A stretch of 64,000 bases of DNA from Branchiostoma floridae (Eukaryota; Chordata; Leptocardii; Amphioxiformes; Branchiostomatidae). Below, piece after piece: positions 12,782-51,198 of the stretch; position 1 is the stretch's first letter; every line of letters begins with the position of its first letter. The position numbers and the translations under genes were made by a program. The DNA lies in the NCBI RefSeq assembly GCF_000003815.2, contig NC_049981.1, forward strand, positions 33,522,072-33,586,071, written 5' to 3'. The notes below the pieces were generated by a model. The model did not search any database and was not told where the DNA came from. It saw only the letters and a list, made by a program, of their open reading frames with translations.

Positions 12782-12852
12782 TCATGCCTTGGTGTTTGAG
12801 GTGTCAATCGTGGTCATCCTCCACCAGGTCTGGAAGGCCTTGTTGTCCAGTC
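12782..12852 (-). CDS. mosaic receptor exon 27: cytoplasmic tail and stop
   Basis: 71 bp, phase 1. GLDNKAFQTWWRMTTIDTSN, TKA, stop TGA (12784-12782). Acceptor CCCTGTTAG. A short tail with no signalling motif I recognise; LDNKAF resembles tails of other invertebrate ZP membrane proteins only loosely. Confidence 0.75.
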
Positions 12853-15800
12853 CTAACAGGGAAAACAAAATGTGCACTTATATTAGCACACCGGTCCCGC
12901 TTTCCACCCACTTATTATATAAGGTCATGCACACATAAAGTTACAGATGGCATCCTAGGAGCGCTAGTTTGACTATTTTCCTATCAAAATAGAAACCCCA
13001 CTTTTCTTAACCGGTGGATAGAAATACATGCCATTGACTTCTGATTAGAAGGTGTCACAAATAAAGACATCTCTGTAAGGTGGAACATGGTTTGCTAGTA
13101 GACTCATAATTCGATCTCGTTTCTCTGTCATCGGATGCTGTAGTTGATGACAAATGATCTCACGTCGTACTGATTGTTATAGCCTAGTCTAAAATGTTAC
13201 TCTGTGCCTGAAGGTGCACTCTCACTGCACTTGCGTCAAGCTTGTGTCACTGCGGGGTTCAAAAGATACTCAACGAATTTCAGAGATAATGAACAGATTT
13301 TCTTACTTTTTGTGTATTTTGTCGTCTTCTAAGTCATACTTTTACGTATCACGCAATATCTAGATTATAAAAAATCGGACAAAAAATCGGGCAAAATAAA
13401 CAATGGCGCAGCGCTAGCTTGACGCAAGCTTGACGCAAGTGCAGTGAGAGCGCACCTTTAATGCCTGGTGAAACACATACAGATGCAGTCACCTACCGAC
13501 GGTGTCGTCATCCTGTCGTTTCTTGCGCCTGAAGGCCAGAACCAGGAGAACCGCCACGATCAGGAGGGCCATGATCCCGACAACCCCAAGAAACGCCCCA
13601 AACATGGTTCCCACCGGGACTCCAGCTGGTCCTGTGGGACAGGAGGAGAGGTCCAAGTTTAGTAACGTCTGCAAGTTGTAACTTCTGCAAGTTTAGTAAC
13701 TTCTGCAAGTTGTAACTTCTGCATGTTGTAACTTCTGCATGTTGTAACTTCTGCAAGTTGTAACTTCTGCAAGTTGTAACTTCTGCAAGTTTAGTAACTT
13801 CTGCAAGTTGTAACTTCTGCATGTTGTAACTTCTGCATGTTGTAACTTCTGCATGTTGTAACTTCTGCATGTTGTAACTTCTGCAAGTTGTAACTTCTGC
13901 AAGTTTAGTAACTTCTGCAAGTTGTAACTTCTGCAAGTTGTAACTTCTGCAAGTTGTAACTTCTGCAAGTTGTAACTTCTGCAAGTTGTAACTTCTGCAA
14001 GTTGTAACNNNNNNNNNNNNNNNNNNNNNNNNNNNNNNNNNNNNNNNNNNNNNNNNNNNNNNNNNNNNNNNNNNNNNNNNNNNNNNNNNNNNNNNNNNNN
14101 NNNNNNNNNNNNNNNNNNNNNNNNNNNNNNNNNNNNNNNNNNNNNNNNNNNNNNNNNNNNNNNNNNNNNNNNNNNNNNNNNNNNNNNNNNNNNNNNNNNN
14201 NNNNNNNNNNNNNNNNNNNNNNNNNNNNNNNTATGCGTGCGTTTTTAGCGCATCATAACGAAACCTGGGGTACATTGCTGTTTTCCTTAGGTCAGGAAAA
14301 AATAAGTTTCATTACGTACCTGCTCCTGCTTCTTCTTCGAACTCCAGCTCGAACGGTCCCTGCGAAATTCTTCCCTGGTGGTCCTGGTTGCTGTCCCGGC
14401 GGACCCTCCCGTCCCACCCGTCGGAGGTGTCCCGGCGAATCCTCCCGTCCTGCCCGCCGGAGGTGTTCCCGTTGCTGTCCCGGCGAACCCTCCCATCCTG
14501 CCCGTCGGAGGTGTTCCGGTGTGACAGCGATCTCGCCCCCCCGGCGATCTCGCCCCCCCGGGGGGCGAGATCACTAGCGTTTTCGCCCCCCTTTAGCGTT
14601 TTCGCCCCCCCCCCCCCAGAGCAGCTGGTTACTACATATTACAGGTGCGCTACCTGGTACTATACTGCACCTGGGGAGTAACGTGTATGGTGTGTTACCT
14701 GGTACCTTATGGCACCTTATTACCGTACCGTAAGATGCCTGTCATACCTCGAAAGTCAATACTATATTGGTCGGTGCAAACATGACATTGAAATGAAAAA
14801 GACAATTTTTGCAGCTGAAGTGGCATAAAAACAGTGCTACTGCGAACGTATAAATCAACACCGTCCATGGTACGGAATACGTCAGCTATATGTTTTCAAT
14901 TTGTCACAGTGTTTTCTTTCTTGTGCTGGAAANNNNNNNNNNNNNNNNNNNNNNNNNNNNNNNNNNNNNNNNNNNNNNNNNNNNNNNNNNNNNNNNNNNN
15001 NNNNNNNNNNNNNNNNNNNNNNNNNNNNNNNNAAGTTGTAACTTCTGCAAGTTGTAACTTCTGCAAGTTTAGTAACTTCTGCAAGTTGTAACTTCTGCAA
15101 GTTGTAACTTCTGCAAGTTTAGTAACTTCTGCAAGTTGTAACTTCTGCAAGTTGTAACTTCTGCAAGTTGTCTTTCTCTGTAGTCTCCAAGCAGATCCTA
15201 CGGTGCCATAAGATAGTATCAAAGCTGTCCAAAGGTAGTCAAACAGGCTCCTGTCGCATGCACACTCCAAGGCTGGCTTCACTCCTCTGCCAGCTTTTGA
15301 TACTATCTTATGCTACTGTAGGATCTGCTTGGAGATTATTTCTCGGCAATGTCAAGATCTCATACAAGCACTACATAAGCACCATCTAAGACTTTAAACG
15401 TACAGAATAGATTCCTCTAAGGATCGCACATATCCCACTTTTTGTTCAAGAATCCATGTTTGTTTGTTCAAAGAGCCTATAGAATTGTACGCATATCTGA
15501 GTTCAGGCGGGCTTTTCACGTGACATGAATCAATCCTTGTGTCTTCCCTGTAAAGTCGCTTTCCCTAACTAACCTAGATTTGATGTCAGTGCGTGTGTTT
15601 TAGCGCAACATGGTGAAACCTCTGGTACATTTCTGTTCTCTTTAGGTCAGGCAGAAATGAGTTTCATTAAGTACCTGCTCCTGCTTCGTCTTCAAACTGC
15701 AGCTCGAACGGCCCCTGCGAAATTCTTCCCTGGTGGTCCTGGTGGCTGTCCCGGCGAACCCTCCCATCCTGCCCGCCGGAGGTGTCCCGGCGAACCCTCC

Positions 15801-18800
15801 CGTCCCGCCCGCCGGAGGTGTCCCGGCGAACCCTCCCGTCCTGCCCGCCGGAGGTGTCCCGGCGAACCCTCCCATCCTGCCCGCCGGAGGTGTCCCGGCG
15901 AACCCTCCCGTCCTGCCCGCCGGAGGTGTCCCGGCGAACCCTCCCATCCTGCCCGCCGGAGGTGTCCCCGTTGCTGTCCCGGCGAACCCTCCCGTCCTGC
16001 CCGCCGGATCCGGAGGTGTCCCGCCTGCCCCGTACGGAGGAGATACAGCCCTGGCTGCACCTTGAGTTCGGGTTGTCCTTGAAGCAGACGATCATGGTGC
16101 AGTGGAAGTACACCTGGGGAATAATGATTCAATGAACAATGAACAATGAACAATGATCAACACTTATCAGACTCTAACCTCCACCAAGCTTGAGGCAGCT
16201 TGCTTTTGCTTCCGTTTTGAGGGTTGCACCGTTAACAGCACATCGGCAGAAGAATGATATATTCTCGATTCCAAGTGACATCCTCAATTTTTCTGCGGGA
16301 AAAAATGAAAGCATGAAACATAAAAAATCAAAATAACTTTTCGTATAAAAAACGATCCTGTCAATAGAGAGTTTGTGGAGGTTTAAGAAAAGGCAGACAG
16401 CCAATTGCAAGAAAAAAAAATATCAACGATAATATATACGGCTGTGATACGTAATGTATACGGCTGTAATGCGTTATGAATGTGACCTTAATAAGCATTC
16501 TTCGCCAGCCACCAAAGAAGCGACATCGGTCAAACAGGTTTTCGTTTTTTACCAGGTTCTGTTCGATAGAATTGGGGAAGCCGAAGGCGGCCACGGTGTA
16601 GTACAGAGCAGTGTCATTAGAAAGGCCATTGTCCTTCTCTAGAGTCGCAGCAACCTCACAGCTGCAAAGTTAGAGGAACACATCATTTGATAACGAGACA
16701 CATGCAGTACCAAGTCTGTCCTACTGCCGAGTTACTCATGATCGCCGTAAGATTGCACAAAGAATCAACAAACAAACAAACAAACTTATCACAAACAACC
16801 AACACAAGCCAACCAAATAACTAACCAACCAACCAACAAATTCCAGCTACAAAGCCGTCCTGACTAACCTGCCGCAATCAGTTATTCAACTTTGTCAAAT
16901 TAGTGAGATATAATGACAATGACGTTTATTGCATATTCATACCCCATTGGGGCTAAATGCAGTTAGTTTGGTACAAAGGGAGTAAACGGAAAGCTATACA
17001 TAAACTACAGTTTACTGCTTCTTCTCTTCTTAAAGCATGTGTAGACGAACTTACAGAGTTTTTCCAGTATATCGTAGTTAGATGATGACATAAGGTATTT
17101 GAACAGATCTTCCTTCGTTAGGTGCGCATATTTTTTTTATCTACATGTGCAGCATTAACGAATGCATTTTGCAGGTCTTTATACAGTGAACACTCCAGGA
17201 TAAAGTGTAATTCGTTTCCTACATACATGAGACTCTCAAATATAAATAACCCAGGTGCAAACGTACCCATCCACGATGATGTCGACCCTTGGAGAGTCGT
17301 TCGGGTCGGTGCTGGGGGTGGACACACAGTCACGTGCAAACAGCTCCACGTTGTCAAGCGGTGACGTCACGCTCAGGCCAAAGTTCAGACGGTCATCCGG
17401 TGTGACCTGGGATGATCAAGTACAAGATCGGCTACTTTCTGTATTTCTTATGTATTTTTTGTTGTGCAAATAAATAAATAAATAAACAAACAAACAAAAA
17501 ACACCTACCCCTCACACTGGACGTCTAGGAGGAGCGACTTTGGTCCACAGGGCCATCCGGTTAAAATAAAGGTCATGTATGTATGTAGGTAGGTAGGTAG
17601 GTATGTATGTAAGTATGTATGTCTGTACAAGGAGACAGATAGAACTTAAATACAAAGTTGCCGACCTTAATGGGGAAGTCAGTAGACTTGTAGCTTGCTC
17701 CGAAGTCTGGAGACTTGTACGTTCGCATCTCCAAGGTCATTTCTCCCTCCGCGTCAACGATTTCAAACCTGGAGGAGATTGGAAACGCCGGTATCAAGTT
17801 ACTGCAAGTCCACACATCACCTTAAACGTAGCCTTTAGCATACGTAGACAACTTCATCAGGTTGGCAATTATTAATCATATAGTAAGGTTCTTTAGGCAC
17901 AACCAGGGAATACTTACTTCCAACGTTTCGATGTCTGTCAGACACCATCATCAGGGTTAGAATGGCTGGATACGATTCTCACTTCTACTAATAGCNNNNN
18001 NNNNNNNNNNNNNNNNNNNNNNNNNNNNNNNNNNNNNNNNNNNNNNNNNNNNNNNNNNNNNNNNNNNNNNNNNNNNNNNNNNNNNNNNNNNNNNNTTATA
18101 TCATTCTGAAACTGCATTTTGGGATTAATACCAATCAACTTCTGAAATGTCATGTAAACCCTTTTTTTTTGGGGGGGGGCGATATCGCTAAAGAGCGGGG
18201 AGGTAGCCCGGCGAGATCTCTACCCGGCGAGGGCGAGATCGCTAGCGATTTCGCCCCGGGGGGGCGAGATCGCTAGTGATTTCGCCCCCGGGGGGGCGAG
18301 ATCACGGGGGGGCGAGATCGCTGTCACACCGGCGAACCCTCCCGTCCTGCCCGCCGGAGGTGTCCCCGTTGCTGTCCCGGCGAACCCTCCCGTCCTGCCC
18401 GCCGGATCCGGAGGTGTCCCGCCTGCCCCGTACGGAGGAGATACAGCCCTGGCTGCACCGTGAGTTCGGGTTGTCCTTGAAGCAGACGATCATAGTGCAG
18501 TGGAAGTACACCTGGGGAATAATGGGACGTCAATGACAAACGGAAAATAAACACTTCTCAGACTCTAACCTCCACCAAGATTAAGGCAGCTTGCTTTTGC
18601 GTCAGTTTGGAGGGTTGCACGTTTAACAGCACATCGGCAGAAGAATGATATATTGGCTCGATTCAAGTCTCATTCTTTTTCTCCGGGTGAAACGATGTCA
18701 AAAAATGCAAAATGCAAAACACGAAAAAATAAAAATAGCTCTTCGGATAAAACTAGCCTATCAATACAGAGTTTGTGGAGGTTTAAGAAAAGGCAGACAG

Positions 18801-27800: not shown

Positions 27801-29141
27801 ATATAATCAGCTGCTGCCGCGCCGCGTGCCTGCGAAGCTGGTGTGTTACGCTGAACGGTGGTTATACCGGCTATATAGATAACGTTACAGATAAAGAACG
27901 GAAAGCTACTGTTAGTGATGGGATGGGACAGCACGTGTGAACCACGGAAAGAACCTGGCGGGCTTCAGGGTCAGCCGATGTACTGGGAGCGGGTTGATCG
28001 GGATTGGAACCCATAACCTTCTGGTCCAGAAGCGGGACTGATAACCATTATAACTCATTATACACCATTCAGGTTTGTACACAATGTAGTACTAGCCCAA
28101 GGTCGGCCCAAGGTTAACTGTCTCATTACGTCGGTACTACCCACCTGTCCTGAAAGTCCCGACGGTATGTCCGGTTTGCCGGCTCTGATCATCAGTTGAG
28201 TTGAGCGTGAGGGTGTAGCTTGTGTAGGGCAGCAGTCCCGACACGATATCCGAGAGGTCGTCTGCTGCCGGTGCGGGGTCCAGGTTCTTAGACGTGCCCG
28301 TCCCGTCTGCCGGCTCGTAGCTGAGGGTGTAGCTGTCAATCTGAACACCTTCAGCCTTTGTCCAGGAAACTTCCAGATCAGTAAGCCCGGCCCTTTCGAG
28401 GGTCAGGCCCGAGATCGCTGATTCTGTGTGAAGAAGTGGTTGACGAGGATAAGACATTGCAAGTGATCTGAACTCCAAGAAAGGCCCAAATGTAATGCAC
28501 CAATTCATACTTGGCAGAAAGTACCTGCATGGTGAATTTAAAAGACAGCGACTTGCAAGTCGTACTAGGAGCGGGTTGATCGGGATTGGAACCCATAACC
28601 GTCTGGTCCAGAAGCGGGACTGATAACCATTATAACCTATTATACACCATTGTACACAATGAACGGATAACCATTATAACTCATTATACACCACCCAGTT
28701 TTACACACAATGCAGGCACTAGCCCAAGGTCGGCCCAAGGTTAACTGTCTCATTACGTCGGCACTACCCACCTGTCCTGAAAGTCCCGACGGTATGTCCG
28801 TTTTGCCGGCTCTGATCATCAGTTGAGTTGAGCGTGAGGGTGTAGCTTGTGTAGGGCAGCAGTCCCGACACGATATCCGAGAGGTCGTCTGCTGCCGGTG
28901 GGTCGGTCAAGTCCACAGGCGTGCCCGTCCCGTCCGCCGGCTCGTAGCTGAGGATGTAGCTGCCAATCTGATAACCATCCCTCTTCGACCAAGCAACTTC
29001 AAGATCATCAATCCCAGCCCATATAAGGGTAAGGCCCGAGATCACTGATTCTGTTGGTTAAGTGGTTAACAAGAATAAGACATTGATTTATACGTTTGGC
29101 ATGGCACTGTTTTTAGAGAGGCGACATTGCTACCGATGTCT

Positions 29142-34920: not shown

Positions 34921-34946
34921 GTGCGTGTGTGCGTGCGCGCGCGCGC

Positions 34947-34977
<31 letters not shown>

Positions 34978-43900: not shown

Positions 43901-46900
43901 GTGCAGCCTGCGACATCAAATCGCATAGTGATGGCTCCATTCCACTCCTGCACCACGAAGCGAACATAACGTGCTTTAACTGGGTTTTCCAGTTCGTTTG
44001 TTACAGCTGTGCTGGCGTCCGTGTTGCCTGCAAAAATCTGGAATGTAAACGGATGACTAAAATGAGTGCATCTTAACTTTTCTGTAGATCTTATGATTTA
44101 ACTCCGAACATCAAATACAAACTGTGGTGACTGACTGAGCTAAACCCAGGCTCACGATGTTTATATTAGGCATATTGTAACCAGTCGTCTGTGAAAGCAA
44201 ACAAAAGTGATCAAAAGAGAGCTAATAGTTTGGGATATGCCAGTCCGGTATGTAGTCGCTCCCTACAGAGAAATTCCCCACGATTGCTCTTCTAGCAATC
44301 CTATCATACTTAATGATTATTTGTCTTATATGGGTAGCTTTGTATCTACTAAGTTACCTTATCTGAGCCATCGCTGCCCACATATGTCGTCCAACGGGTC
44401 CCGTCATCGCTGTACTGGAGTTTGTAGAACGTTATCCAGGATCCGGAGGAAGAACCTTGAATGATGGTGCCGGTGACTTGCGTCCGCATTCCTAGATCCA
44501 CCTAAATGGCGTGATATGACCACATCATATGATGTACTGGTTGGTCAACAGCAGACCGAGATGATTACAACACCAGACATGCGCTTTTAGGTAAGTAGGC
44601 AACGAACCAGCGAGGACGTAGTTCCCAAGGAAGTGAAATCCATCGTGAAATTCCGCGTGAAATCATTTTTCACCTCAATAATACCATGTTTGGTATTATT
44701 GAGGTGAAAAAGTGACAACATTTGGCTTAGATTACAACAAAGTTGATACCGTTTTCTTTTAAGTACATCTTATCAAAACGTGGTTGGCATTAAACTATAC
44801 GATAGCACGCATTGACATTTAGATTATTTTTCAGACACGACTGCGGTACCAAGTTGAGCGTTGGAGGGAAGTTCTTTGCAGCAAGTTATTTGAACTGAAA
44901 ATACTCCCTTTCCAGATAAGAAAACAGTATAACTACCTGTAACCACTCCCCGATTCTGTTCTGACTGGCTGCCCAGTAGCTGTTAGAGTCCAAGCGTCCG
45001 GCATGGGGTGGGTTATCGGGTAAGGCCGAAGATGCAGTGATACTGCCATCAGGTATGGTACTGTCTGCCACCCCAAGGGGATCACTATTACAGCCTGGGT
45101 GGAAAAGAAAGTTATGGGTTTGGACATCCCTGTGACAGAAAACCTTATAATGCTATAAACCGAACAACAACACCAATATGTAGTTCCGGACGGTGATTCT
45201 CCCTGATACATGAACACAACAGGTCAACCGTGACGGACACATGGACCTGAGCCAGCACAAAATGCATTGATATATCAGCACGGCAACCTGTTGTTCATGA
45301 TTCCAAATCATCAATACTGTAAAACATGATTCAGATTTTACAAGTTTCACCTAACCGGAAACAGGCGGAAAACTGTTCCCTTCAGTTCTTGGATGGTGCG
45401 TCACAATAAATTAAAACAGGCCAACGTCTAGAACTCTGTAGTCTCAGGGCAAGCAAAACCTTTCCATGGATGACCTGAAGACAACTAACAATGGCAACAA
45501 AAACGCTACTACCATGCATTCTTTAGGGGAGAGCACTAAATACGTAGTGGTGGATTTTTTTGGTTGTTCTAAGTAGGAAAACATTAACACGTGTCATGCA
45601 GCCGGGTGTGCAGCTTGGTGTGGCGTTTTTAAAGAAACGAAGAAGCCCTCATATCATGGCAAAGTGAAAGCGTGGTGGTTCTGTGGCCTTCTTTATGAAT
45701 AAGCTTTATTCACCTTGACACTGGAAGTCAGTTGGGATGGATAAAGGGGTATTTTCAACCGCTATATACGCACTTTCATACAGCCGTTTACTTCTGGTAG
45801 GTAATACATCAATGATAAAGGCACTCTCCATACTACGCTTTGATTATTTGGCGAATACATCTGTTTCGTGGAACTCTAGTTGTTAATCAAAATATAATTC
45901 ATCTCCAAGGCTTTCTAGGCTGACACTCCATGATGCAGGGGAGGATCATCTCGCATATTTGCTGTTCCCCAAATCGGGTCTTATCATGCACTGGGTGACA
46001 CATGTCAACTTCCTTCACAGATTATTTAAATTAGCTACAGATTAACATTATTGCAACTTGATTGTATAAATCATCACAACAACACATCGACTATCATGAC
46101 AATCCGTCCACCCTTTCTTGAGTTATTCCCTTTCAAAGTCTACAACAAAATCGGCCCCTGCAGTTTAAAGAAAATCACCAGGGGGCTCAAACTAGCACGA
46201 CTTCCTCCCTGCCCAAAGACGTGTCCACTACTAAAAAGTCACGAACCTGGCACTTGAGGAAAATTTTACTACCAACTTTAAACCTCCGCTGCAGTACCGC
46301 AACTTGTTGCCAGGAGGCCCATTATCGTACTTGACCTTCGTTTTCCTGACCCTTATATAACTAAATATATAACCAAATATTATGCAAAACCATCCGCAAC
46401 GTCTCGAGTTAAAGTGTCCGCAAGCGCACACACTCAATCCCACACACACTCGCCCCGCTGCAGTCCCGAGTGAAAGTGCCAGGTAAACCATCTTCGAACG
46501 GAACATTCGTTTCTACAACCGCCACTCAAATACCAAATATCATGAAATTCCATCCACGGCTACCCGAATTATATGCGGTTGTCCTACATATTGAGACAAA
46601 ACACCATTTTCATACCCAAAACATAAACATTTTGGCGAATGCAACAGCAGAGGCTTACCGGTGCAGCCTGTGACTTCAGCCCGCATAGTGATGGCTCCAT
46701 TCCACTCCTGAACCACGAAGCGAACATAACGGGCATAAACTGGGTTTTCCAGTTCGTTTGTTACAGCTGTGCTGTCGTCCGTGTTGCCTGCAAAAATCTG
46801 GAATGCAAACGGATGACTGAAATGAGGATATTTCAACATTCTACAGAGCTACAGATAATTATCCTCACCATACTCCGAACATCAAATACAAACTGTGGTG

Positions 46901-49900
46901 ACTGAGCTAAACCTAGTCTTACTGCATTTGATAACCAAACGTCTATTAAAGCAAACGAAAGTGATCAATAGAGAGATTTGTCAGAGGATGGTTGGAACGG
47001 GACAGCTAAGAGTTTGGGTAGTTTGGGATGTATGAAGTTTAGCAACTGAAATCTGCCATTTTTTGCTGACAGAATTAATGATTATTTGTTTTATCTGTGA
47101 TAGGTCTGTATCTAAGTTACCTTCTCTGAGCCATCGCTGCCCACATATGTCGTCCAACTGGTCCCATCTTCGCTGTACTGGAGTTTGTAGGACGTGATCC
47201 AGGATCCGGAGGAAGAACCTTGAATGATGGTGCCGGTGACTCGCGCCGCCACTCCTAGATCCACCTAAATGGCGTGATATGACCACATCATATGGTTGGT
47301 TATGATGTACCAAAGTGCACAAGAGCAGACCGAGATGAGTACAATACCAGACATAAGCTTTTAGGTAAGTAGGCAACGAACCAGCGAGAACGTAGTTCCC
47401 AAGGAAGTGAAATCCATCGTGAAATTCCACGTGAAATCAAAATGTTTGGTATTGTTGAGGTGAAGAAGTGACAACATGTGGCTTAGATTACAACAAAGTT
47501 GATACCGTTTTAAGTACATCTTATCAAAACGACTGCGGTACCAAGTTGAGTGTTGGAGCGAATTTCTTTGCAGCAAGTTATTTGAACTAAAAGTACTCCC
47601 TTTCCAGATAACAAAGCAGTATAAATACCTGTAACCACTCCCCGACTATGTTCTGACCGGCTGCCCAGTAGCTGTTAGAGTCCAAGCGTCCGGCATGGGG
47701 TGGGTGATCGGGTAAGGACGAAGATGCAGTGATGCTGCTATCAGGTATGCTTCTGCCGCCAGGTGAGTCTGGAGGTTTCACCCCAAGCGGATCCTCACAT
47801 CCTAGTACTGGACAAAAAGGGACCGGACCGGGCCGTTAATTTTCCGTATCCTTAATACATTAGGGGAAAATCGATCGGACGATGAGTGTGCAAGCTCTAA
47901 ATTACAAGGAGGCATGACCCTGACGGGAAGGGGGAACTCTGCCATTTCTTCGTCGGCATCAGGGTCATGCCTCCTCGTAATTTAGAGCTCGCAGACACGT
48001 CGTCTGATCGATTTTCGCCTAAGGTGAGGGGGGTATAAGGGGTACGACCATATTACGAGATACCATTCGTATCCGCCCGTATATGGTTTGTACTGATGCA
48101 CGGCCAATTTATGTATAACACAACACAGTCTGACGAAATTAACGCCACGTTGCCTCATGAAAGTCATTGGAATGTAATGATTCACGGTCTAGCATAATGT
48201 ACGTCGGCAAGGCTTCTATCATAGCATGAGAAATCGTCGTTTTGAGGAATATTGAATTATGAAGTCACAGTTCAGTTCAGTTCAGTTCATCCTCATATGA
48301 GGTGCCATTAATGATGTCCGACCTTATCAAATATGTACCTAAAGGTTGCAAAGCTACACGACGTAACCGGAAACGATATCGTAAACGACAACATGGCATG
48401 GTTATTAACGCTTGTATGAACGCTTTCGAATAGTATAGTTTGAAACGGAAATTGTAAGGGTATAAGTAAGACATGGTTCATTAAGGACTCTTTCAATCTT
48501 TCGAAACGCCCTTTTGTATGCTTTCATTCAAAATCAAACTAACGATCCGTACAGAGATATCAAATGGGATTGGCGTCCTTTCATCTTCATCAACTTAAAC
48601 GTTAGACGTAAGGACCACAGGAGTCTACACGTTCACAACTTAAACGTTAGACGTAAGGACCGCAGAATTCTACACGTTCACAACTTAAACGTTAGACGTA
48701 AGGACCGCAGAATTCTACACGCTCACAACTTAAACGTTAGACGTAAGGACCGCAGAATTCTACACGCTCACAACTTAAACGTTAGACGTAAGGGCCGTAG
48801 AATTCTACACGCTCACAACTTAAACGTTAGACGTAAGGACCGCAGAATTCTACACGTTCAAAACTTAAACGTTAGATGTAAGGACCACAGGAGTCTACAC
48901 GTTAAAAACTTAAACGTTAGACGTAAGGACCGCAGAATTCTACACGTTCACAACTTAAACGTAAGACGTAAGGACCGCAAAATTCTACACGTTCACAACT
49001 TCAACGTTAGACGTAAGGACCGCAGAATTCTACACGCTCACAACTTAAACGTTAGACGTAAGGACCGCAGAATTCTACACGCTCACAACTTAAACGTTAG
49101 ACGTAAGGGCCGTAGAATTCTACACGCTCACAACTTAAACGTTAGACGTAAGGACCGCAGAATTCTACACGTTCAAAACTTAAACGTTAGATGTAAGGAC
49201 CACAGGAGTCTACACGTTAAAAACTTAAACGTTAGACGTAAGGACCGCAGAATTCTACACGCTCACAACTTAAACGTTAGACGTAAGAACCGCAGAATTC
49301 TACACGCTCACAACTTAAACGTTAGACGTAAGGACCGCAGAATTCTACACGCTCACAACTTAAACGTTAGACGTAAGGACCGCAGAATTCTACACGCTCA
49401 CAACTTAAACGTTAGACGTAAGGGCCGTAGAATTCTACACGCTCACAACTTAAACGTTAGACGTAAGGACCGCAGAATTCTACACGTTCACAACTTCAAC
49501 GTTAGACGTAAGGACCACAGAATTCTACACGTTCACAACTTAAACGTTAGACGTAAGGACCGCAGAATTCTACACGTTCACAACTTAAACATTAGACATA
49601 AGGACTACCGAATTTTACACGTGCACAACTTAAACATTAGACATAAGGACTACCGAATTTTACACGTGCACAACTTCAACGTTAGACGTAAGGACCACAG
49701 AATTCTACACGTTCACAACTTCAACGTTAGACGTAAGGACCGCAGAATTCTACACGTTCACTACTTAAACGTTAGCCGTAAGGACTGCAGAATTCTACAC
49801 GTTCACTACTTAAACGTTAGACGTAAGGACTGCAGAATTCTACACGTTCACTACTTAAACGTTAGACGTAAGGACTGCAGAATTCTACACGTTCACAACT

Positions 49901-51198
49901 TCAACGTTAGACGTAAGGACCGCAAAATTCTACACGTTCACAACTTAAACGTTAGACGTAAGGACCGCAGATTCCACACGTTTACAAATTTGACATTTTG
50001 CACATCATTAAAAAAAAACAAGACTCACCCGTGCAGACCACACCAACGTCCTCACTGTGCTGACAGTCGTGTATGCCCCATCCGTTGTGACTGCAGTCTT
50101 CGATGTTCGTCTCGGAACCCTCGCAGGCCAAGTCGTCCAGCACGATCTTCCCGGACCCCTCCCCGAAGGCTGCTTGAGATCGGACCTCTTCAGCGCTTTT
50201 GTATCCCAGCTGACGGCAGACCACGTGGGCGTCGTTCATGTCAAAACCGTCGTCACAGACGGTTCCCCACGACCAGTCATACTCCACTTCAACTCTGCCC
50301 TCATGAGGCAAACTTCCATCCTCGAGCTCAATGTCTGAAAAAATACGACAATGAAGGAAAACTTCTGAGTTCTTATTTTATCTGGATTCGATTCAACTCA
50401 GTCTATTTTCTTTTCGAGTTTACGGACATCAAGAACTCATTTCTTTTCGGCTGCCGCATGGATCGCAGCAATGTCTATTTCCGAGTCGAACTTTTGTGTT
50501 ATAATAATGGTACCCTAAATAAACGTAAGTACGTCTATAACATGAAAAAGTCGTTTCGGTAAAGGAACTGGCTTTATGGCCAATGCCCACTTGAGACAAA
50601 CTTACAGTATCTCTTGATATCGGACACCTGATGAAGATGATTTAAGATACATTTTAATGGTATCTCATCAATGTGGATACTGTTGAGTGTTACAGAATAT
50701 AATGATATCAGGTTTTGCCAAGATGTCTTAGTAAAGTAAAATTTGTTGCGAATCACCAGGTAGCTCGAATCACGGAATACAACGATGTTTTTGTTTCGAG
50801 ACAGTATAGTGCACGTAAAACCATATCGTTTCAATAGCACAAAATGCGGTCGTGTCGATATTTCAAAACCGTCCATTACCAAAATAATGAGTCCTTCAAT
50901 ATATTGTAAAAGCCAACTTCTGTCAATACTCGTAATGTATGTTTTAGCCAGAATTTTCTGACCATGTTGAAACTTGAAAAGGATTTGGTAATTAACGTTT
51001 CCTGTGATCTTCAGCGCCATGATTACCCGCGAGGCTGTTGCTTTACTCTTGTAAATATTGACTTGCCTATCGTTAACCATTACTACTACAAAAAGGACTC
51101 TAAACACGAGGTTTACCTTTAGCAGTCACTGAAGCAGTGGTCGCTATCAGCAGCAGGGCCGCCCAGCTCCAGAACCCTGGTGGACCCGGACCCGCCAT
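12782..51198 (-). CDS. large mosaic receptor gene: SP-SRCR-F5/8C x2-FN3 (11)-ZP-furin array-TM
   Basis: Overall span of one gene; the exons are listed separately. The order on the minus strand is signal peptide, SRCR, two F5/8C domains, FN3 domains, ZP, an RVRR array, a transmembrane helix and a short tail. All junctions use GT-AG and the reading phases agree: every extracellular module begins and ends in phase 1. Counting overlapping contig ends once gives 27 exons and 5733 coding bases, exactly divisible by three, or about 1,910 residues. ZP modules polymerise or tether extracellular proteins; F5/8C, SRCR and FN3 bind glycans or proteins; so a cell-surface or egg-coat recognition protein is likely, but this is inference. 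I do not recognise the architecture. As drawn, the scaffold carries FN3-5 to FN3-11 and the ZP exons twice, next to 100-N gaps. Confidence 0.85.
13211..13458. mobile_element. 248 bp MITE, family 1 copy A (receptor intron)
   Basis: 33 bp inverted ends, AAGGTGCACTCTCACTGCAC at the left and its near-inverse (GTGCAGTGAGAGCGCACCTT) at the right. The interior (CTCAACGAATTTCAGAGATA, then TTGTGTATTTTGT) is shared with the copy at 40879-41126. Lies in the intron between the TM and tail exons. Confidence 0.8.
13497..13631 (-). CDS. mosaic receptor exon 26: transmembrane helix
   Basis: 135 bp, phase 1-1. GPAGVPVGTMFGAF then about 23 hydrophobic residues (including LGVVGIMALLIVAVLLVLAF) and a basic stop-transfer, RRKKRQDDDTV. 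Acceptor TGTCCCACAG, donor GTCG|GTAGGT. Extracellular amino-terminus (type I). Confidence 0.88.
13655..14008. repeat. 16 bp minisatellite in receptor intron
   Basis: Tandem AACTTCTGCAAGTTGT with a GCATG variant and an inserted AGT-TTAGT form. It abuts the 223-N gap and continues at 15033-15172. TTGTAACTTCTGCAAG is partly self-complementary. Confidence 0.93.
14009..14231. other. assembly gap, 223 N
   Basis: A sized gap inside or beside the 16 bp minisatellite; its length is not the default 100. Confidence 0.99.
14320..14519 (-). CDS. 3' half of ZP exon 6, transposon-bearing allele
   Basis: Starts at CCGG just after the transposon end (TGTGACAGCG at 14520) and encodes DGQDGRVRR, GQDGRIRR and DGWDGRVRR repeats, then RISQGPFELEFEEEAGA to donor GCAG|GTACGT, phase 1. 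Joined to 18329-18511 across the CCGG duplication the frame is kept, with five repeat sites against seven in the other allele. Confidence 0.8.
14933..15032. other. assembly gap, 100 N
   Basis: A default-size gap between a contig ending in the transposon and a contig starting in the 16 bp minisatellite. Confidence 0.99.
15033..15172. repeat. 16 bp minisatellite, second block
   Basis: Same AACTTCTGCAAGTTGT unit as 13655-14008, at the left end of contig 4. Most likely the same array seen from the other side of the unresolved overlap. Confidence 0.9.
15184..15335. mobile_element. 152 bp fold-back MITE
   Basis: 43 bp inverted ends starting TCTCCAAGCAGATCCTAC and ending in its inverse, CAGATCC-type, ...GGATCTGCTTGGAGA, with about 3 mismatches. 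In the receptor intron between exons 25 and 26. Confidence 0.75.
15675..16113 (-). CDS. ZP exon 6 with seven-fold RVRR array, contig-4 allele (intact)
   Basis: 439 bp, phase 0-1. VYFHCTMIVC, NSRCSQGC closes a 10-cysteine ZP module. It is followed by VRGRR, then DTSG-type 12-residue repeats, each ending GQDGRVRR (one GRDGRVRR): seven RVRR sites in all. It ends QGPFELQFEDEAGA at donor GCAG|GTACTT. In ZP proteins a furin site between the ZP-C and the transmembrane helix (the CFCS) controls release and assembly; here that site is multiplied. GC-rich, with a 36 bp unit. Confidence 0.9.
16553..16661 (-). CDS. ZP exon 5 (ZP-C), contig-4 copy
   Basis: 109 bp, phase 2-0; DGC, EVAATLEKDNGLSNDTAL, VAAFGFPNS. 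Confidence 0.9.
16905..17245 (-). mobile_element. LINE 3' remnant in receptor intron (contig 4)
   Basis: Minus-strand frames read NELHFILECSLYKDLQNAF, then LTKEDLFKYLMSSSN and LEKLCKFVYTCFKK, the terminal region of a non-LTR element protein, ending with AATAAACGTCATTGTCATT. The same insertion is at 19345-19690 on contig 3. Confidence 0.7.
17267..17406 (-). CDS. ZP exon 4 (ZP-C), contig-4 copy
   Basis: 140 bp, phase 0-2; matches 19703-19842 closely. One side of the exon is followed at once by a LINE remnant in the intron. Confidence 0.9.
17666..17768 (-). CDS. ZP exon 3, contig-4 copy
   Basis: 103 bp, phase 2-0; same translation as 20102-20204, offset 2,436 bp. Confidence 0.85.
17996..18095. 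other. assembly gap, 100 N
   Basis: A default-size gap. The base before it (17995) corresponds to 20431 in the neighbouring contig, so the two contigs overlap. Confidence 0.99.
18329..18511 (-). CDS. ZP exon 6 and furin array, contig-3 allele, interrupted by a transposon
   Basis: Begins VYFHCTMIVCFKDNPNSRC, SQGC (last four ZP cysteines), then VRGRR and two QDGRVRR repeats, where the coding sequence is cut at CCGG|TGTGACAGCG. The other half of this exon lies at 14320-14519, beyond the transposon. Confidence 0.85.
18985..19093 (-). CDS. ZP exon 5 (ZP-C), contig-3 copy
   Basis: 109 bp, phase 2-0. Completes DGC, then QVAETLEKDNDLSNDTAL and VAAFGFPNSIEQNL. Differs from the contig-4 copy at three residues. 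Confidence 0.9.
19345..19690 (-). mobile_element. LINE 3' remnant in receptor intron (contig 3)
   Basis: As 16905-17245: NELHFILECSLYKDLQNAF, FKYLMSSSN, VYTC. It is the same insertion seen in both haplotypes, with small indels. Confidence 0.7.
19703..19842 (-). CDS. ZP exon 4 (ZP-C), contig-3 copy
   Basis: 140 bp, phase 0-2. VTPDDRLNFGLSVTSPLDNV, ELFARDCVSTPS, VDIIVDG. The ZP-C hallmark L-x-L-F-x-x-D-C-x-x-T-P is clear, with the fifth ZP Cys. Confidence 0.92.
20102..20204 (-). CDS. ZP exon 3, contig-3 copy
   Basis: 103 bp, phase 2-0. FEIVDAEGEMTLEMRTYKSP and STDFPIK, the ZP linker and start of ZP-C. Donor AAG|GTCGGC is not consensus but the phase fits the next exon. Confidence 0.85.
20615..20787 (-). 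CDS. ZP exon 2 (ZP-N end), contig-3 copy
   Basis: 173 bp, phase 0-2; protein identical to 24366-24538. Joined on the same contig to ZP exons 3-6 below, which gives the continuous ZP module. Confidence 0.92.
21074..21307 (+). mobile_element. LINE 3' end with 12 bp target duplication (contig 3)
   Basis: A 234 bp insert ending ATTAGCCCTTGGGCAAGAAT and TTGCAGTAAACTTATTATT. It is flanked by ACTAAGCTAGTA at 21062-21073 and 21308-21319. The same insertion is at 24825-25058 in contig 2, so it predates the split of the haplotypes. Confidence 0.75.
21344..21525 (-). CDS. ZP exon 1 (ZP-N), contig-3 copy
   Basis: 182 bp, phase 1-0; protein identical to the copy 3,751 bp away at 25095-25276. Confidence 0.92.
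22032..22346 (-). CDS. FN3-11, contig-3 copy, with RRKR loop
   Basis: 315 bp, phase 1-1. Four or so residues differ from 25787-26101 (for example GIDQ for GMDQ, GSGS for GTGS, RQNG for RKNG). The GRRKRS loop is conserved. Confidence 0.9.
22602..22880 (-). CDS. FN3-10, contig-3 allele
   Basis: 279 bp, phase 1-1. AGVEDLEVSWTKDASAQIDS, GTSEDLDPAPGAGDISDIVS, ending GLQNGHTIGTFKTG. It looks like a patchwork: the middle resembles FN3-3 and the E-F part resembles FN3-9. Confidence 0.9.
22917..24030 (+). mobile_element. internally deleted CR1/Jockey-like LINE in receptor intron (contig 3)
   Basis: Antisense to the host gene. Broken frames give ATGPDLIPPWFIKMTASEIA, DTGEIPKDWRDANICAIFKK, SNYRPVSLTCISCKLLEHII and NILTDYQHGFRAKRS: reverse-transcriptase blocks up to the finger/palm region. 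After 23400 comes a low-complexity GGGTTTC/CCTGGG-rich stretch, then the element's end: VQNQAARFCTNTYNRDASV and YFPRTIVEW. The YADD catalytic block is missing, so this copy cannot move by itself. Confidence 0.85.
24222..24321. other. assembly gap, 100 N
   Basis: A default-size gap. The left neighbour ends at a base matching 27983 and the right neighbour starts at a base matching 20571, so the flanking contigs overlap by about 3.65 kb. Confidence 0.99.
24366..24538 (-). CDS. ZP exon 2 (ZP-N end), contig-2 copy
   Basis: 173 bp, phase 0-2. ISGEDKFIFSNEAIADEV, VSLPFQCEF with the fourth ZP-N Cys, ending FVIPPP. Lies 44 bp from a contig end (24322). Confidence 0.92.
24825..25058 (+). mobile_element. 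LINE 3' end with 12 bp target duplication (contig 2)
   Basis: Other copy of the insertion at 21074-21307, with the same ACTAAGCTAGTA flanks. Confidence 0.75.
25095..25276 (-). CDS. ZP exon 1 (ZP-N), contig-2 copy
   Basis: 182 bp, phase 1-0. ESAVVNVECAEGIMTIAIPR, LLNASC, TRLEECGT: the first three ZP-N cysteines and the closing CGT motif. Donor CAG|GTGAGG. Confidence 0.92.
25787..26101 (-). CDS. FN3-11, contig-2 copy, with RRKR loop
   Basis: 315 bp, phase 1-1, 12 codons longer than its sisters. LTLDGGGMDQLVVSWGKAQG, SGLLPGISYTITLTSFQP, then a loop NAGRRKRSEQDR before GVITRTFRTG. RRKR|S (25836-25847) fits the furin consensus R-X-K/R-R. This is the last FN3 before the ZP domain. Confidence 0.9.
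26358..26633 (-). CDS. FN3-10, contig-2 allele
   Basis: 276 bp, phase 1-1. AGVDDLEVSWTKDPDFQIDS, GTPNNLDPAPAADVTSTTVS, ending GRQNGHTIGTFKTG. One codon shorter than, and about 20 residues different from, the contig-3 copy at 22602-22880, although the surrounding introns are almost identical. Donor ACAG|GTGGGC. Confidence 0.9.
26668..27780 (+). mobile_element. internally deleted CR1/Jockey-like LINE in receptor intron (contig 2)
   Basis: The same insertion as 22917-24030 in the other haplotype, about 97-98% alike by eye, with further frame breaks (a stop in the KDW segment). Confidence 0.85.
28145..28423 (-). CDS. FN3-9, contig-2 copy
   Basis: 279 bp, phase 1-1; translation identical to 33382-33660. 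Confidence 0.9.
28772..29050 (-). CDS. FN3-8, contig-2 copy, with conversion tract
   Basis: 279 bp, phase 1-1. The first half is FN3-8 (LEVAWSKRDGYQIGSY); the second half is FN3-9 sequence (DDLSDIVSGLLPYTSYTL). The switch is at about 28895 in the plus-strand coordinates, and the FN3-9-like tract runs out into the intron to about 28740. Confidence 0.9.
29139..29458. repeat. compound GT microsatellite (contig-2 copy)
   Basis: (GT)n broken by TACGTATG and TTGTG units, about 320 bp, in the intron between FN3-8 and FN3-7. The contig-1 copy is twice as long. Confidence 0.95.
29870..30148 (-). CDS. FN3-7, contig-2 copy
   Basis: 279 bp, phase 1-1; translation identical to 35400-35678. Confidence 0.9.
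30590..31470. repeat. dispersed AT-rich repeat, contig-2 copy
   Basis: A block with TTAATTA-rich arms and a terminal part bearing ACAATCCGTCAAAC, GAGTTATTCCCTTT, GCCGCTAGGGGG (twice). The same terminal part returns at 36130-37000 (allelic), 46060-46340 and 58870-59115, so this is an interspersed element of unknown class. Confidence 0.65.
31650..31872. other. assembly gap, 223 N
   Basis: A sized gap. The other haplotype has 222 bp (37178-37399) between the same flanking bases, so the missing sequence is effectively known. Confidence 0.97.
31956..32234 (-). CDS. FN3-6, contig-2 copy
   Basis: 279 bp, phase 1-1. As exon 14 but with GTPVDLDPAPTAGTTSATVS and TTYILTL. Six replacements are clustered in the second half. 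Confidence 0.88.
33189..33194 (-). CDS. FN3-5, contig-2 copy, cut by a gap (6 bp visible)
   Basis: Only the last six exon bases and the donor ACAG|GTGGGT are present before the 100-N gap. The intron beyond matches that of FN3-5 at 38921, so this is the other copy of that exon. Confidence 0.7.
33195..33294. other. assembly gap, 100 N
   Basis: A default-size gap between contigs whose ends overlap by about 5 kb (28057-33194 matches 33295-38926 or so). Confidence 0.99.
33382..33660 (-). CDS. mosaic receptor exon 17: FN3-9, contig-1 copy
   Basis: 279 bp, phase 1-1. LEVSWTKAEGVQIDSYTLSY, DDLSDIVSGLLPYTSYTL. Protein identical to the copy at 28145-28423. Lies 87 bp from the contig end at 33295. Confidence 0.9.
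34009..34287 (-). CDS. mosaic receptor exon 16: FN3-8, contig-1 copy
   Basis: 279 bp, phase 1-1. LEVAWSKRDGYQIGSYILSY, then AAGTTSATVSGLLPYTSYNI. The first half equals the copy at 28772-29050; the second half differs at ten residues because of a conversion tract in that copy. Confidence 0.9.
34380..34988. repeat. compound GT/GC microsatellite (contig-1 copy)
   Basis: (GT)n with TACGTATG interruptions, about 600 bp, and a pure (GC)n run at 34935-34962. Alternating purine-pyrimidine DNA of this length is a strong Z-DNA candidate. Confidence 0.95.
35400..35678 (-). CDS. mosaic receptor exon 15: FN3-7, contig-1 copy
   Basis: 279 bp, phase 1-1. LEVSWTKEAGVQIDSYILSY, SGLLPYANYTITL. The protein is identical to the copy at 29870-30148. 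Confidence 0.9.
36120..37000. repeat. dispersed AT-rich repeat, contig-1 copy
   Basis: The allelic counterpart of 30590-31470. Confidence 0.65.
37483..37761 (-). CDS. mosaic receptor exon 14: FN3-6, contig-1 copy
   Basis: 279 bp, phase 1-1. VRTGATDLEVSWTEEDGDKI, PGLLPDTTYTITLTSSDD. A stronger donor, GTAAGT, three bases further on would add one residue and keep the phase. Six residues differ from the copy at 31956-32234. Confidence 0.9.
38222..38440 (+). mobile_element. 219 bp LINE 3' end present in one haplotype only
   Basis: Contains GAAAATGTGGGGCTTTTCGT and ends ATTAGCCCTCGGGCACGAAT, TTGCAAATAAACTTCTTAT. Flanked by CTTATTTA at 38214-38221 and 38441-38448. Contig 2 has the empty site, a single CTTATTTA at 32687-32694. 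Confidence 0.85.
38921..39196 (-). CDS. mosaic receptor exon 13: FN3-5
   Basis: 276 bp, phase 1-1. Includes AGVDDLEVSWTKDPDFQIDS, a segment identical to the contig-2 allele of FN3-10, and a distinct carboxy-end, GGLSKTYETG. The overlapping copy on the neighbouring contig is cut by a gap at 33195. Confidence 0.9.
39511..39789 (-). CDS. mosaic receptor exon 12: FN3-4
   Basis: 279 bp, phase 1-1. VEVFWQTSDDLQIGSYILSY, TGLLPYTSYTITLTYFDDD. Ends in ACAA|GTGGGT instead of ACAG, which changes the junction residue but keeps the phase. Confidence 0.88.
40188..40327. mobile_element. 140 bp MITE with perfect 37 bp ends
   Basis: Ends TAGCCTCCATAGCAGGCTCT inverted at the right, 37 of 37 bp matching. Flanks GGCATGCCT and GGCTTGCCT look like an 8-9 bp target duplication with one change, as in hAT elements. 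The related introns at about 30450 and 35980 lack it. Confidence 0.82.
40503..40781 (-). CDS. mosaic receptor exon 11: FN3-3
   Basis: 279 bp, phase 1-1. Contains KVSWTKEAGAQIDSYSLSYE and TVSGLLIYKSYTITL. Its middle (AQIDSYSLSYE, GTSEDL) is shared with the contig-3 allele of FN3-10. Confidence 0.9.
40879..41126. mobile_element. 248 bp MITE, family 1 copy B
   Basis: A perfect 51 bp inverted end beginning AAGGCCCCCTCTCACTTGAC, with TTA-type flanks. The interior is shared with 13211-13458 and the length is identical. Confidence 0.88.
41217..41495 (-). CDS. mosaic receptor exon 10: FN3-2
   Basis: 279 bp, phase 1-1. LTGLTLDDAGINSLTVDW, RYSLRYELAGGS, TVSGLLAYTEYTLTLTSYD. Acceptor TTTCAG, donor ACAG|GTGGGT. 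Confidence 0.88.
41540..41835 (-). mobile_element. LINE 3' remnant
   Basis: Minus-strand frame: TKDELFVYIMTARDNIVQQK, LCEFVYTYFKKRE, then a tail with GCAAATAAAGATCACTT. Same family as 16905-17245 and 54360-54760. Confidence 0.65.
42530..42710 (+). mobile_element. LINE 3' end fragment
   Basis: GAAAATGTGGGGCTTTTCGT...ATTAGCCCTCGGGCACGAAC, TTGCAAATAAACTTCTTAT: the same tail as the polymorphic insertion at 38222. Confidence 0.75.
42714..42908. mobile_element. 195 bp palindromic MITE, family 2 copy A
   Basis: About 78 bp inverted arms: CTCACATTAGGCGCGATT, GGACGAAGAGTCTGCGAGCT, GGAGGCATGACCCTGA on the left and the inverse on the right, with a GAAATGGCAGAGTTCCCC centre. Confidence 0.85.
43016..43288 (-). 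CDS. mosaic receptor exon 9: FN3-1
   Basis: 273 bp, phase 1-1. LSGLTLDDVGKDHLSVSW at the B strand, YSLSYRED, TVSGLQADTDYHLVLY in the E-F region. The most divergent of the FN3 set, and the nearest to the F5/8C domains. Donor CAG|GTTGGT is weaker than usual. Confidence 0.85.
43899..44037 (-). CDS. mosaic receptor exon 8: second F5/8C domain, part 3
   Basis: 139 bp, phase 0-1. IFAGNTDASTAVTNEL, ARYVRFVVQEWNG, MRFDVAGC. Donor CACCG|GTAGGT. Confidence 0.9.
44358..44501 (-). CDS. mosaic receptor exon 7: second F5/8C domain, part 2
   Basis: 144 bp, phase 0-0; VDLGMRTQVTG, WITFYKLQYSDDGTRW, VGSDGSDK. Introns on both sides resemble those of the first F5/8C copy, so the whole three-exon block was duplicated in tandem. 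Confidence 0.9.
44665..44712. repeat. 48 bp perfect hairpin in receptor intron
   Basis: TTTTTCACCTCAATAATACC with its inverse across a TGTT loop. The duplicated intron at 47429-47475 has only one arm, so the hairpin arose after the F5/8C duplication. Confidence 0.7.
44937..45094 (-). CDS. mosaic receptor exon 6: second F5/8C domain, part 1
   Basis: 158 bp, phase 1-0. Begins GCNSDPLGV; ends NRIGEWLQ. Nearly the same as exon 3 apart from the short insertion there. Confidence 0.9.
45095..46658. other. receptor intron between the two F5/8C domains
   Basis: No exon seen. 46060-46340 is a copy of the dispersed element with ACAATCCGTCCACCC, GAGTTATTCCCTTT and GGAGGCCCATT. The remainder is unique-looking. 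Confidence 0.5.
46659..46797 (-). CDS. mosaic receptor exon 5: first F5/8C domain, part 3
   Basis: 139 bp, phase 0-1. IFAGNTDDSTAVTNELENPV, then ARYVRFVVQEWNG, MRAEVTGC: the typical F5/8C carboxy-end with its closing Cys. Donor CACCG|GTAAGC. Confidence 0.92.
47121..47264 (-). CDS. mosaic receptor exon 4: first F5/8C domain, part 2
   Basis: 144 bp, phase 0-0. VDLGVAARVTGTIIQG then WITSYKLQYSEDGTSW and YVGSDGSEK, the central strands of an F5/8C domain. Donor AAG|GTAACT. Confidence 0.9.
47629..47801 (-). CDS. mosaic receptor exon 3: first F5/8C domain, part 1
   Basis: 173 bp, phase 1-0. Begins GCEDPLGV, with the first conserved Cys of discoidin domains, then ITASSSLPDHPPHAGRLDS and NSYWAAG, ending GEWLQ. 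Carries an 8-residue PPDSPGGR-type insertion absent from the second domain. Donor CAG|GTATTT. Confidence 0.9.
47853..48037. mobile_element. 185 bp palindromic MITE, family 2 copy B
   Basis: The same arms (AGGAGGCATGACCCTGA, TTAGAGCTCGCAGAC) with the centre in the opposite orientation to 42714-42908. The left end is eroded. In the intron between SRCR and F5/8C-1. Confidence 0.82.
48268..48560. mobile_element. one end of the CAGTTCAGTTCAGTTCAT MITE family
   Basis: CAGTTCAGTTCAGTTCAT then CCTCATATGAGGTGCCATTA. It matches the inverse of the right end of 503-898. The other end was not found; the 45 bp minisatellite begins just beyond. Confidence 0.5.
48590..49985. repeat. 45 bp minisatellite, 31 copies, receptor intron
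   Basis: Unit AACTTAAACGTTAGACGTAA, GGACCGCAGAATTCTACACG, TTCAC. Variants are arranged in order: units 3-7 are repeated as units 10-14, a seven-unit (315 bp) higher-order copy. The array lies in the intron just 3' of the SRCR exon. A plus-strand frame of 682 codons (repeat NLNVRRKDRRILHVH) runs through it and on into the antisense of the SRCR exon. Confidence 0.95.
50029..50334 (-). CDS. mosaic receptor exon 2: SRCR domain
   Basis: 306 bp, phase 1-1. After DIELEDGSLPHEGRVEV come the SRCR hallmarks WGTVCDDGFD, VVCRQLGY, LACEGSE, DCSHNGWG and VGVVC. Six cysteines fit the group A pattern, yet the domain is in one exon, which is the group B gene layout in vertebrates. Acceptor TTTTTCAG, donor CACGG|GTGAGT. 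Confidence 0.92.
51117..51198 (-). CDS. mosaic receptor exon 1: signal peptide
   Basis: ATG at 51198 in a good context (ACGATGG). It encodes MAGPGPPGFWSWAALLLIAT followed by TASVTAK; the core is hydrophobic, with likely cleavage after SVTA. Donor AAAG|GTAAAC, phase 1. A 137 bp MITE lies only about 90 bp upstream. Confidence 0.85.

Follow-up and report, generated by a model that had tools for sequence, protein, structure and literature searches.

The locus examined here raises the question of whether a single lancelet gene can join SRCR, F5/8C, FN3 and ZP modules in one membrane protein and, if so, what such a protein would do. The window, that is, the whole stretch of DNA analysed, comprises 64,000 nucleotides of Branchiostoma floridae, C3:33522072-33586071. 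An original prediction had placed in it a gene of 27 exons but gave no exon list; rebuilt from splice sites, the gene lies on the minus strand from 51198 to 12782 in 27 exons with consistent phases, matching the start, end and exon number that had been claimed. Its coding length is 5736 nt with the stop codon, or 1911 sense codons plus stop, to which the 5733 bases originally given are equal. All 26 introns are bounded by GT-AG, although this agreement is not an independent test because the exon borders were selected by the GT-AG rule and phase. The SRCR module and every FN3 module each occupy one 1-1 exon, the F5/8C modules are split over exons as 1-0/0-0/0-1, and the ZP module occupies six exons (ZP1-ZP6) that are entered and left in phase 1. 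Phase 1 is thus found at every module border, and the 1-1 phase ascribed to the extracellular modules is true at the level of the module. The features are as follows, with FN3 exons lettered A to K and exons 3 to 24 drawn from the gene model and Pfam.

51117..51198, minus strand: exon 1, signal peptide with its ATG at 51198; the exon closes in phase 1 (same exon in C3YP34; N-terminus similar in 19 of 38 relatives)
50029..50334, minus strand: exon 2, SRCR, phase 1-1 (Pfam SRCR, 108 bits)
48586..49987, no strand: 31 copies of a 45-bp minisatellite, within the intron that separates SRCR from F5/8C (repeat scan)
47629..47807, minus strand: exon 3, first F5/8C, part a
47121..47264, minus strand: exon 4, first F5/8C, part b
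46659..46797, minus strand: exon 5, first F5/8C, part c
44937..45094, minus strand: exon 6, second F5/8C, part a
44358..44501, minus strand: exon 7, second F5/8C, part b
43899..44037, minus strand: exon 8, second F5/8C, part c
43016..43288, minus strand: exon 9, FN3 A
41217..41495, minus strand: exon 10, FN3 B
40503..40781, minus strand: exon 11, FN3 C
39511..39789, minus strand: exon 12, FN3 D
38921..39196, minus strand: exon 13, FN3 E
37483..37761, minus strand: exon 14, FN3 F; second copy at 31956-32234
35400..35678, minus strand: exon 15, FN3 G; second copy at 29870-30148, identical
34009..34287, minus strand: exon 16, FN3 H; second copy at 28772-29050, a mosaic with FN3 I
33382..33660, minus strand: exon 17, FN3 I; second copy at 28145-28423, identical
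26358..26633, minus strand: exon 18, FN3 J; second copy at 22602-22880, 33 differing alignment columns
25787..26101, minus strand: exon 19, FN3 K, membrane-proximal, with RRKRS furin-type stretch; second copy at 22032-22346
25095..25276, minus strand: exon 20, first ZP-N exon; second copy at 21344-21525, identical
24366..24538, minus strand: exon 21, second ZP-N exon; second copy at 20615-20787, identical
17666..17768, minus strand: exon 22, first ZP-C exon; second copy at 20102-20204, identical
17267..17406, minus strand: exon 23, ZP-C; second copy at 19703-19842
16553..16661, minus strand: exon 24, ZP-C; second copy at 18985-19093
15675..16113, minus strand: exon 25, encoding the last part of ZP-C, then eight RxRR furin-type sites and an EHP-like stretch (gene model, motif count)
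15747..15968, minus strand: 36-bp in-frame minisatellite within exon 25, making up most of the furin-site array (repeat scan)
13497..13631, minus strand: exon 26, hydrophobic (transmembrane) segment, read by eye, and the first part of the cytoplasmic tail (gene model)
12782..12852, minus strand: exon 27, cytoplasmic tail GLDNKAFQTW...TKA and stop (gene model)
33295..38926, no strand: contig-overlap copy, in pieces 89-98% identical to 28057-33194, with gap 33195-33294 between (self-comparison)
24322..27984, no strand: contig-overlap copy, 96.9% identical to 20571-24221, with gap 24222-24321 between (self-comparison)
15931..17995, no strand: contig-overlap copy, 92.7% identical to 18329-20431, with gap 17996-18095 between (self-comparison)
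18096..18328, no strand: tentatively, one end of a transposon-like insertion within the second haplotype's exon 25 (repeat and end comparison)
14520..14932, no strand: tentatively, the other end of that insertion, with the remaining exon 25 copy at 14519-14318 (repeat and end comparison)

The encoded protein begins with a signal peptide, SRCR, two F5/8C modules and eleven FN3 modules; next come ZP-N/ZP-C and eight RxRR sites, followed by a hydrophobic membrane segment and a short cytoplasmic tail of only ~35 residues. A Pfam check confirmed the domain order that had been claimed, with matches above the cut-off for SRCR, for F5/8C twice in the joined protein, for ZP-N (PF23344, 40 bits, cut-off 24.7), for ZP-C (PF00100, 85 bits, cut-off 24.6) and for FN3 in all 11 FN3 exons, each scanned singly. 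The SRCR module aligns with CD163 and with a solved DMBT1 SRCR, the F5/8C pair with FVIII and neuropilin, and the ZP part with the solved ZP2, uromodulin and GP2. The membrane segment was read by eye, and all 43 amino acids of its exon are the same in a neighbouring gene described below. Because of these domain scores, together with two outside gene predictions that use the same exons, the model is not a product of chance. The gene is probably real and single.

Existing annotation covers the locus in pieces. The first half is already present in UniProt as the uncharacterised C3YP34_BRAFL (875 aa), which is 99% identical to the window gene over residues 1-868 and runs from the signal peptide into FN3 E, the fifth FN3. 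C3YP34 stops inside that module, without the other six FN3 modules, the ZP module, the transmembrane segment or the tail. A RefSeq "ZP domain-containing protein-like" entry (415 aa) corresponds to the second copies of FN3 J and K together with ZP1-ZP4, and no annotated model that we found bridges FN3 E to FN3 J. Our protein searches covered lengths of ~1050-3340, 440-1400 and 407-1295 residues, with only the ~8000 candidates that had most words in common with the query scored in each. As had been anticipated, no protein among the matches listed (17 of 17, the best 120 of 1028, and 26 of 26) spans SRCR to ZP or has the order of the window gene, named or otherwise. Neither the gene nor its family is named in any title or abstract opening found, in a literature drawn mostly from outside subscription journals, and the text of PMC12373286 does not contain the words zona pellucida, fibronectin, SRCR, scavenger, discoidin or gene conversion. 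A scan of the whole window against Rfam gave nothing at gathering score. Downstream of the gene, at 3961-5545 on the minus strand, lie C2H2 zinc-finger reading frames, recognised by eye and apparently in two frames.

The claim of eleven FN3 modules holds once copies are collapsed, whereas the assembly itself contains 17 FN3 exons, six of which (F-K) are second copies (primed below), and extra ZP exons, namely second copies of ZP1-ZP5 and two further partial copies of ZP6. Self-comparison of the window revealed three long direct duplications inside the gene span. In each duplicated pair, one copy closes a contig and the other opens the following one, with a 100-N gap between them; in the third pair an insert offsets the second copy, which starts 233 bases past the gap. 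The duplications are very probably unmerged haplotypes, present as overlapping ends of adjacent contigs. The SNP rate of 4.39% reported for the Chinese lancelet in PMC4284660 is of the same order as the copy differences. True tandem duplication within the gene was rejected as the main reading, since the copies are contig suffixes and prefixes at 100-N gaps, since tandem copies would yield two half ZP modules, and since the neighbouring gene has one ZP set. The model with eleven FN3 modules follows from collapsing the second copies, which both the self-comparison and the neighbour's single ZP set support. We also rejected the idea that the ZP6 fragments at 18.3 kb and at 14.3 kb are additional exons, as they look like halves of one copy flanking an insertion. 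In each haplotype copy, FN3 J is preceded upstream by an antisense LINE-type reverse transcriptase fragment, identified by eye on the plus strand (23103-24024 and 26856-27753).

Four 100-N gaps and two 223-N gaps fall within the gene span. The part from the signal peptide to FN3 I is free of gaps (33295-51198). The next contig, which has one 223-N gap within it, carries FN3 F' to ZP2, and the two stretches overlap at four FN3 exons (F-I) plus introns. Contig overlaps bridge three of the four 100-N gaps, carrying the gene to ZP6. The step from ZP6 to the transmembrane exon crosses gaps 14933-15032 and 14009-14231 without contig overlap; the piece between these gaps holds the end of a further ZP6 copy, the transmembrane and tail exons lie beyond gap 14009-14231, and the join rests on the scaffold and on the equal layout in the neighbour and relatives. 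The gaps and local duplications, the scaffold connection between ZP6 and the membrane segment, and the division of existing annotations between a first half and an FN3-ZP fragment would all suit an artefact in which at least two genes, one for an SRCR-F5/8C-FN3 protein and one for an FN3-ZP protein, were fused on a gapped, duplicated scaffold. We regard such a fusion as highly improbable, given that the gap-free stretch overlaps the next contig at four FN3 exons with their introns, that the signal peptide exon and the tail exon have one match each in the window (in a search directed at these two exons rather than at unrelated end exons), and that the neighbour repeats the layout of signal peptide, FN3, ZP and tail, though with N gaps of its own.

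This neighbour, at C3:33605086-33644734 on the plus strand, lies head-to-head with the window gene at a distance of 32 kb. It carries a signal peptide, F5/8C and FN3 modules of the same types, ZP1-ZP6, a transmembrane segment and a tail, with one match each for the signal peptide, the ZP1-ZP6 set, the transmembrane segment and the tail. The only SRCR match in 244 kb was the window's own; the neighbour holds N gaps of 318 and 1571 bases. It is annotated as a RefSeq "fibronectin-like" protein (911 aa) and as C3YP31 (1300 aa), and the latter model includes a kringle and has a module order different from that of the window gene. Compared between the two genes, FN3 K, ZP1-ZP5, the transmembrane segment and the tail together gave a pS of 0.044 and a pN of 0.027, with zero differences in the 66 codons of the transmembrane segment and tail; ZP1 was the most divergent exon compared (pS 0.10, pN 0.09), and ZP6, which was kept outside the pS/pN comparison as its array differs in length, is 80% identical. 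In the FN3 tree, from which one weak neighbour exon was left out, FN3 C-J of the window group with two neighbour FN3 modules (98/93), and therefore the array either expanded in the window gene or was reduced in the neighbour. FN3 K groups with one neighbour FN3, its last (99/97), and does not group with the last FN3 of other family members. Upstream of the window gene, at 60204-60883, lies a 13-bp minisatellite with 53 copies.

Beyond this pair, sequence comparison places the gene in a Branchiostoma family in which the ends are kept (the signal exon at one end; the last FN3, ZP, furin-type sites, transmembrane segment and tail at the other) and the middle modules vary. The original prediction was right that a ZP-anchored, exon-shuffled protein with recognition-type modules is encoded here, but not that it stands alone. 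The FN3-ZP-transmembrane part used as query returned 26 proteins, 25 from Branchiostoma species or hybrids plus goat ZP2. The signal exon was compared with 38 relatives, among them the window's RefSeq fragment, two gene models of the neighbour and a few entries that lack ZP. Of these, 19 show a similar N-terminus (local score 57-116); the other 19, some of which are partial models, score 11-26, and control stretches score 10-22. A GLDN-type tail is present in 17 of the 38. The window gene itself has an FN3 directly before the ZP module, a ZP close to that of the family, a hydrophobic segment and a GLDN-type tail. Branchiostoma proteins with the build of signal peptide, cargo, FN3, ZP and transmembrane segment (C3YP31, LOC118410979, LOC118411132 and LOC118412473, B. 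belcheri LOC109471335, and others) have ZP modules ~50-92% identical to that of the window gene, a range that sets aside the window's own fragment and the partial C3YP31 (97%).

The cargo of these relatives, from Pfam lists, includes C-type lectin, VWD/C8/TIL, TSP1, olfactomedin, Ig/ShK, kringle, EGF and F5/8C, and SRCR is absent from the lists of all 36 Branchiostoma proteins among the matches listed by the searches at ~1050-3340 and 407-1295 residues. P0143 from B. belcheri is a nearly bare chassis with a signal peptide, one FN3 and ZP, to which inspection by eye adds two furin-type sites, a hydrophobic segment and a tail. FN3 number was counted for a few relatives, with one stretch in P0139 and P0143 and five or six in P0140 and C3YP31. 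The closest relatives of the SRCR exon besides C3YP34, among the proteins compared and the matches listed, are SRCR proteins of B. floridae (72-75%), neurotrypsin-named and DMBT1-like ones among them, which form a plausible donor set for it.

A ZP tree was built from 33 rows, comprising the window gene, goat and 31 Branchiostoma rows, among which is the window's RefSeq fragment; C3YP31 was too short to be included. The window gene groups with its own fragment (96/93) and then, at a weak fork (85/47), with the neighbour, which is by far the nearest other row by path (0.096 vs 0.53). Another group, supported at 100/99, consists of fifteen rows that come either from B. belcheri or from a B. floridae x B. 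belcheri hybrid. Thus no orthologue of the window gene was seen among the 33 rows, and the expansions within the family look species-specific. ZP genes are numerous in the B. floridae genome, where at least 93 exon-level ZP-C matches were counted (150 of 172 candidates scored, with haplotype copies counted twice), several of them in clusters on C1, C2, C9, C11 and C16.

Between ZP-C and the membrane segment, exon 25 encodes one RGRR and seven RVRR sites, mostly within the minisatellite. A pattern that also counts a basic stretch after the transmembrane segment finds nine sites in the window gene and is above zero in 14 of the 38 relatives, each of which has two or three; C3YP31 has a similar array by eye. 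FN3 K contains a further furin-type site, GRRKRSEQ, in common with the neighbour's last FN3. After the array and before the membrane segment lies the stretch QGPFELQFE, which is EHP-like and whose pattern occurs in only 6 of the 38 relatives. Parts of PMC7737619 describe, for uromodulin and ZP3, an EHP in the C-terminal propeptide, protease-dependent release that is required for polymerisation, and membrane anchoring of the precursor that matters. Because the window protein has ZP-N, ZP-C, cleavage sites, QGPFELQFE and a hydrophobic segment in the same order as uromodulin, we infer that its ectodomain is released, polymerises and displays SRCR and F5/8C. For P0143, the shortest relative, an AlphaFold model from an alignment of 16 proteins had a mean pLDDT of 46 and was confident for FN3 alone, so that the ZP fold and the putative EHP are assigned here from sequence.

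In the second haplotype, exon 25 appears to be split by a transposon-like insertion, an assignment that is tentative; the other allele is intact. The two contig ends of the insertion share a 76-column inverted G+C-rich match, which opens with CCGG and TGTGACAGCGATCTCGCC; the same 18 bases are also found nearby at C3:33591009 and 33623636. Because the insertion ends are rich in short palindromes, another kind of repeat is possible. Tentatively, the reading frame of the split allele would stop soon after the second RVRR, without the EHP or the transmembrane segment.

Our best explanation, held with moderate confidence as one joint claim, is that the gene encodes a type I membrane protein of ~1911 residues that is a member of this constant-chassis family, with a cargo of SRCR, an F5/8C pair and an expanded FN3 stalk, and that furin release would be followed by display on a ZP polymer. 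In this model, phase 1-1 cargo (SRCR, the neuropilin/FVIII-like F5/8C pair and the FN3 stalk) has been shuffled into the constant chassis; the gene structure, the domains, the family and this chassis-and-cargo pattern are what the analysis shows directly. The precursor would be held at the membrane by its anchor. Once the furin array is cleaved, the EHP-bearing tail would dissociate, and the freed ectodomain could then polymerise into filaments or a surface matrix, as do uromodulin and other ZP proteins, holding SRCR and F5/8C modules that would putatively bind microbes, glycans or lipids. The site would most plausibly be a mucosal or epidermal surface, a setting that is likely by analogy with uromodulin, GP2 and DMBT1. 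GP2 and DMBT1 bind bacteria, and a role in binding bacteria is also described for uromodulin in parts of PMC7737619.

Differences between the haplotype copies bear on the alternatives. FN3 G, FN3 I and ZP1-ZP3 show no difference between copies, whereas differing columns number 11 in FN3 F, 14 in H, 33 in J and 9 in K. Summed over the six FN3 exons, amino-acid-changing differences number 49.5 on 1256 sites and silent ones 14.5 on 433 sites (pN 0.039, pS 0.033), with no clear amino-acid-changing excess over the silent rate. Several copies are mosaics: a single run in H' shows the FN3 I state at 13 of the 14 differing sites, with 112 of 113 columns identical in the second half; J is the same as FN3 E at 102 of 102 columns (12 of its 33 differing sites); and K agrees with an FN3 of the neighbour at 129 of 131 columns (5 of its 9 differing sites). 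For F against F' there is no clean donor, the best runs covering 3-4 of 11 sites. Gene conversion may explain the clean mosaics (H', J and K), and assembly chimerism among near-identical exons would do so equally.

The main rival, suggested among the possibilities in the original prediction, is a gamete or egg-coat protein, in which a ZP polymer would form part of the vitelline coat and the SRCR, F5/8C and FN3 modules would serve sperm-egg recognition. ZP proteins build egg coats in many animals, amphioxus included according to the available text of PMC3543715, and the FN3 haplotype copies differ with many amino-acid changes. However, those changes show no clear excess over the silent rate, and the C-type lectin, TSP1, Ig, kringle and olfactomedin modules in the cargo of relatives go with defence and matrix. 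Nothing specific was found behind the egg-coat role, and the five B. belcheri egg-coat ZP proteins described in parts of PMC3543715 are of another build, carrying LDLa and vWFA or neither; we consider this role unlikely. Less likely again is an adhesion or allorecognition receptor that would act at the membrane without polymerising, its FN3 stalk diversified by gene conversion to give individuality. The hydrophobic segment, the conserved tail and the mosaic FN3 copies would accord with such a receptor, but the eight furin-type sites and the ZP module point to release and assembly, the tail is short, FN3 F and F' offer no clean donor, and the mosaics could be assembly chimeras of near-identical exons.

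A broader and doubtful proposal can be made: that lancelets possess a ZP-anchored system of recognition whose constant chassis takes interchangeable 1-1 cargo, with repertoires that expand per species and alleles that differ by cut-and-paste of FN3 segments. One haplotype of the window gene would then be anchorless because of a transposon in the furin array, giving anchored and soluble forms in one animal. Lancelets have the fastest exon shuffling in metazoans, with 1-1 phase exons favoured and a gain of domain pairs estimated at >10 per Myr, according to the parts of PMC4284660 available. Exon shuffling in lancelets is thus already known, and the constant chassis with exchanged cargo is the less familiar part. 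The window locus and its head-to-head neighbour display exon shuffling with the outcome visible, in that most of the C-terminal exons compared are near-identical and the N-terminal cargo is different. The locus is therefore suited to asking which cargo is functional, whether ZP polymers act as display scaffolds in chordate innate immunity, and whether alleles exchange FN3 segments.

Finally, the gene can be placed among known ZP proteins. Uromodulin-like 1 combines EGF and SEA modules with FN3 and ZP; unlike it, the window protein showed neither EGF nor SEA in Pfam scans. The egg-coat proteins BbZP1-5 of B. belcheri are likewise lancelet ZP proteins, of which, in the available text of PMC3543715, three of five have a furin-type site and one of five a transmembrane segment. 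Compared by description only, BbZP2-5 have LDLa and vWFA and BbZP1 has neither, and Pfam scans of the window protein found neither module; the words fibronectin, SRCR and scavenger are absent from that text. DMBT1 (SRCR-CUB-ZP) resembles the window gene in having SRCR and ZP together (Pfam lists, for example P0075), but the window gene has a single SRCR and adds F5/8C and FN3, and neither CUB nor repeated SRCR was found in Pfam scans covering the whole protein. With uromodulin and GP2, as described in parts of PMC7737619, the window gene has in common a ZP module with a membrane anchor and a cleavage site; it lacks their EGF or D8C modules and has instead a transmembrane segment in place of the GPI anchor, an array of cleavage sites in place of one, and a different cargo.
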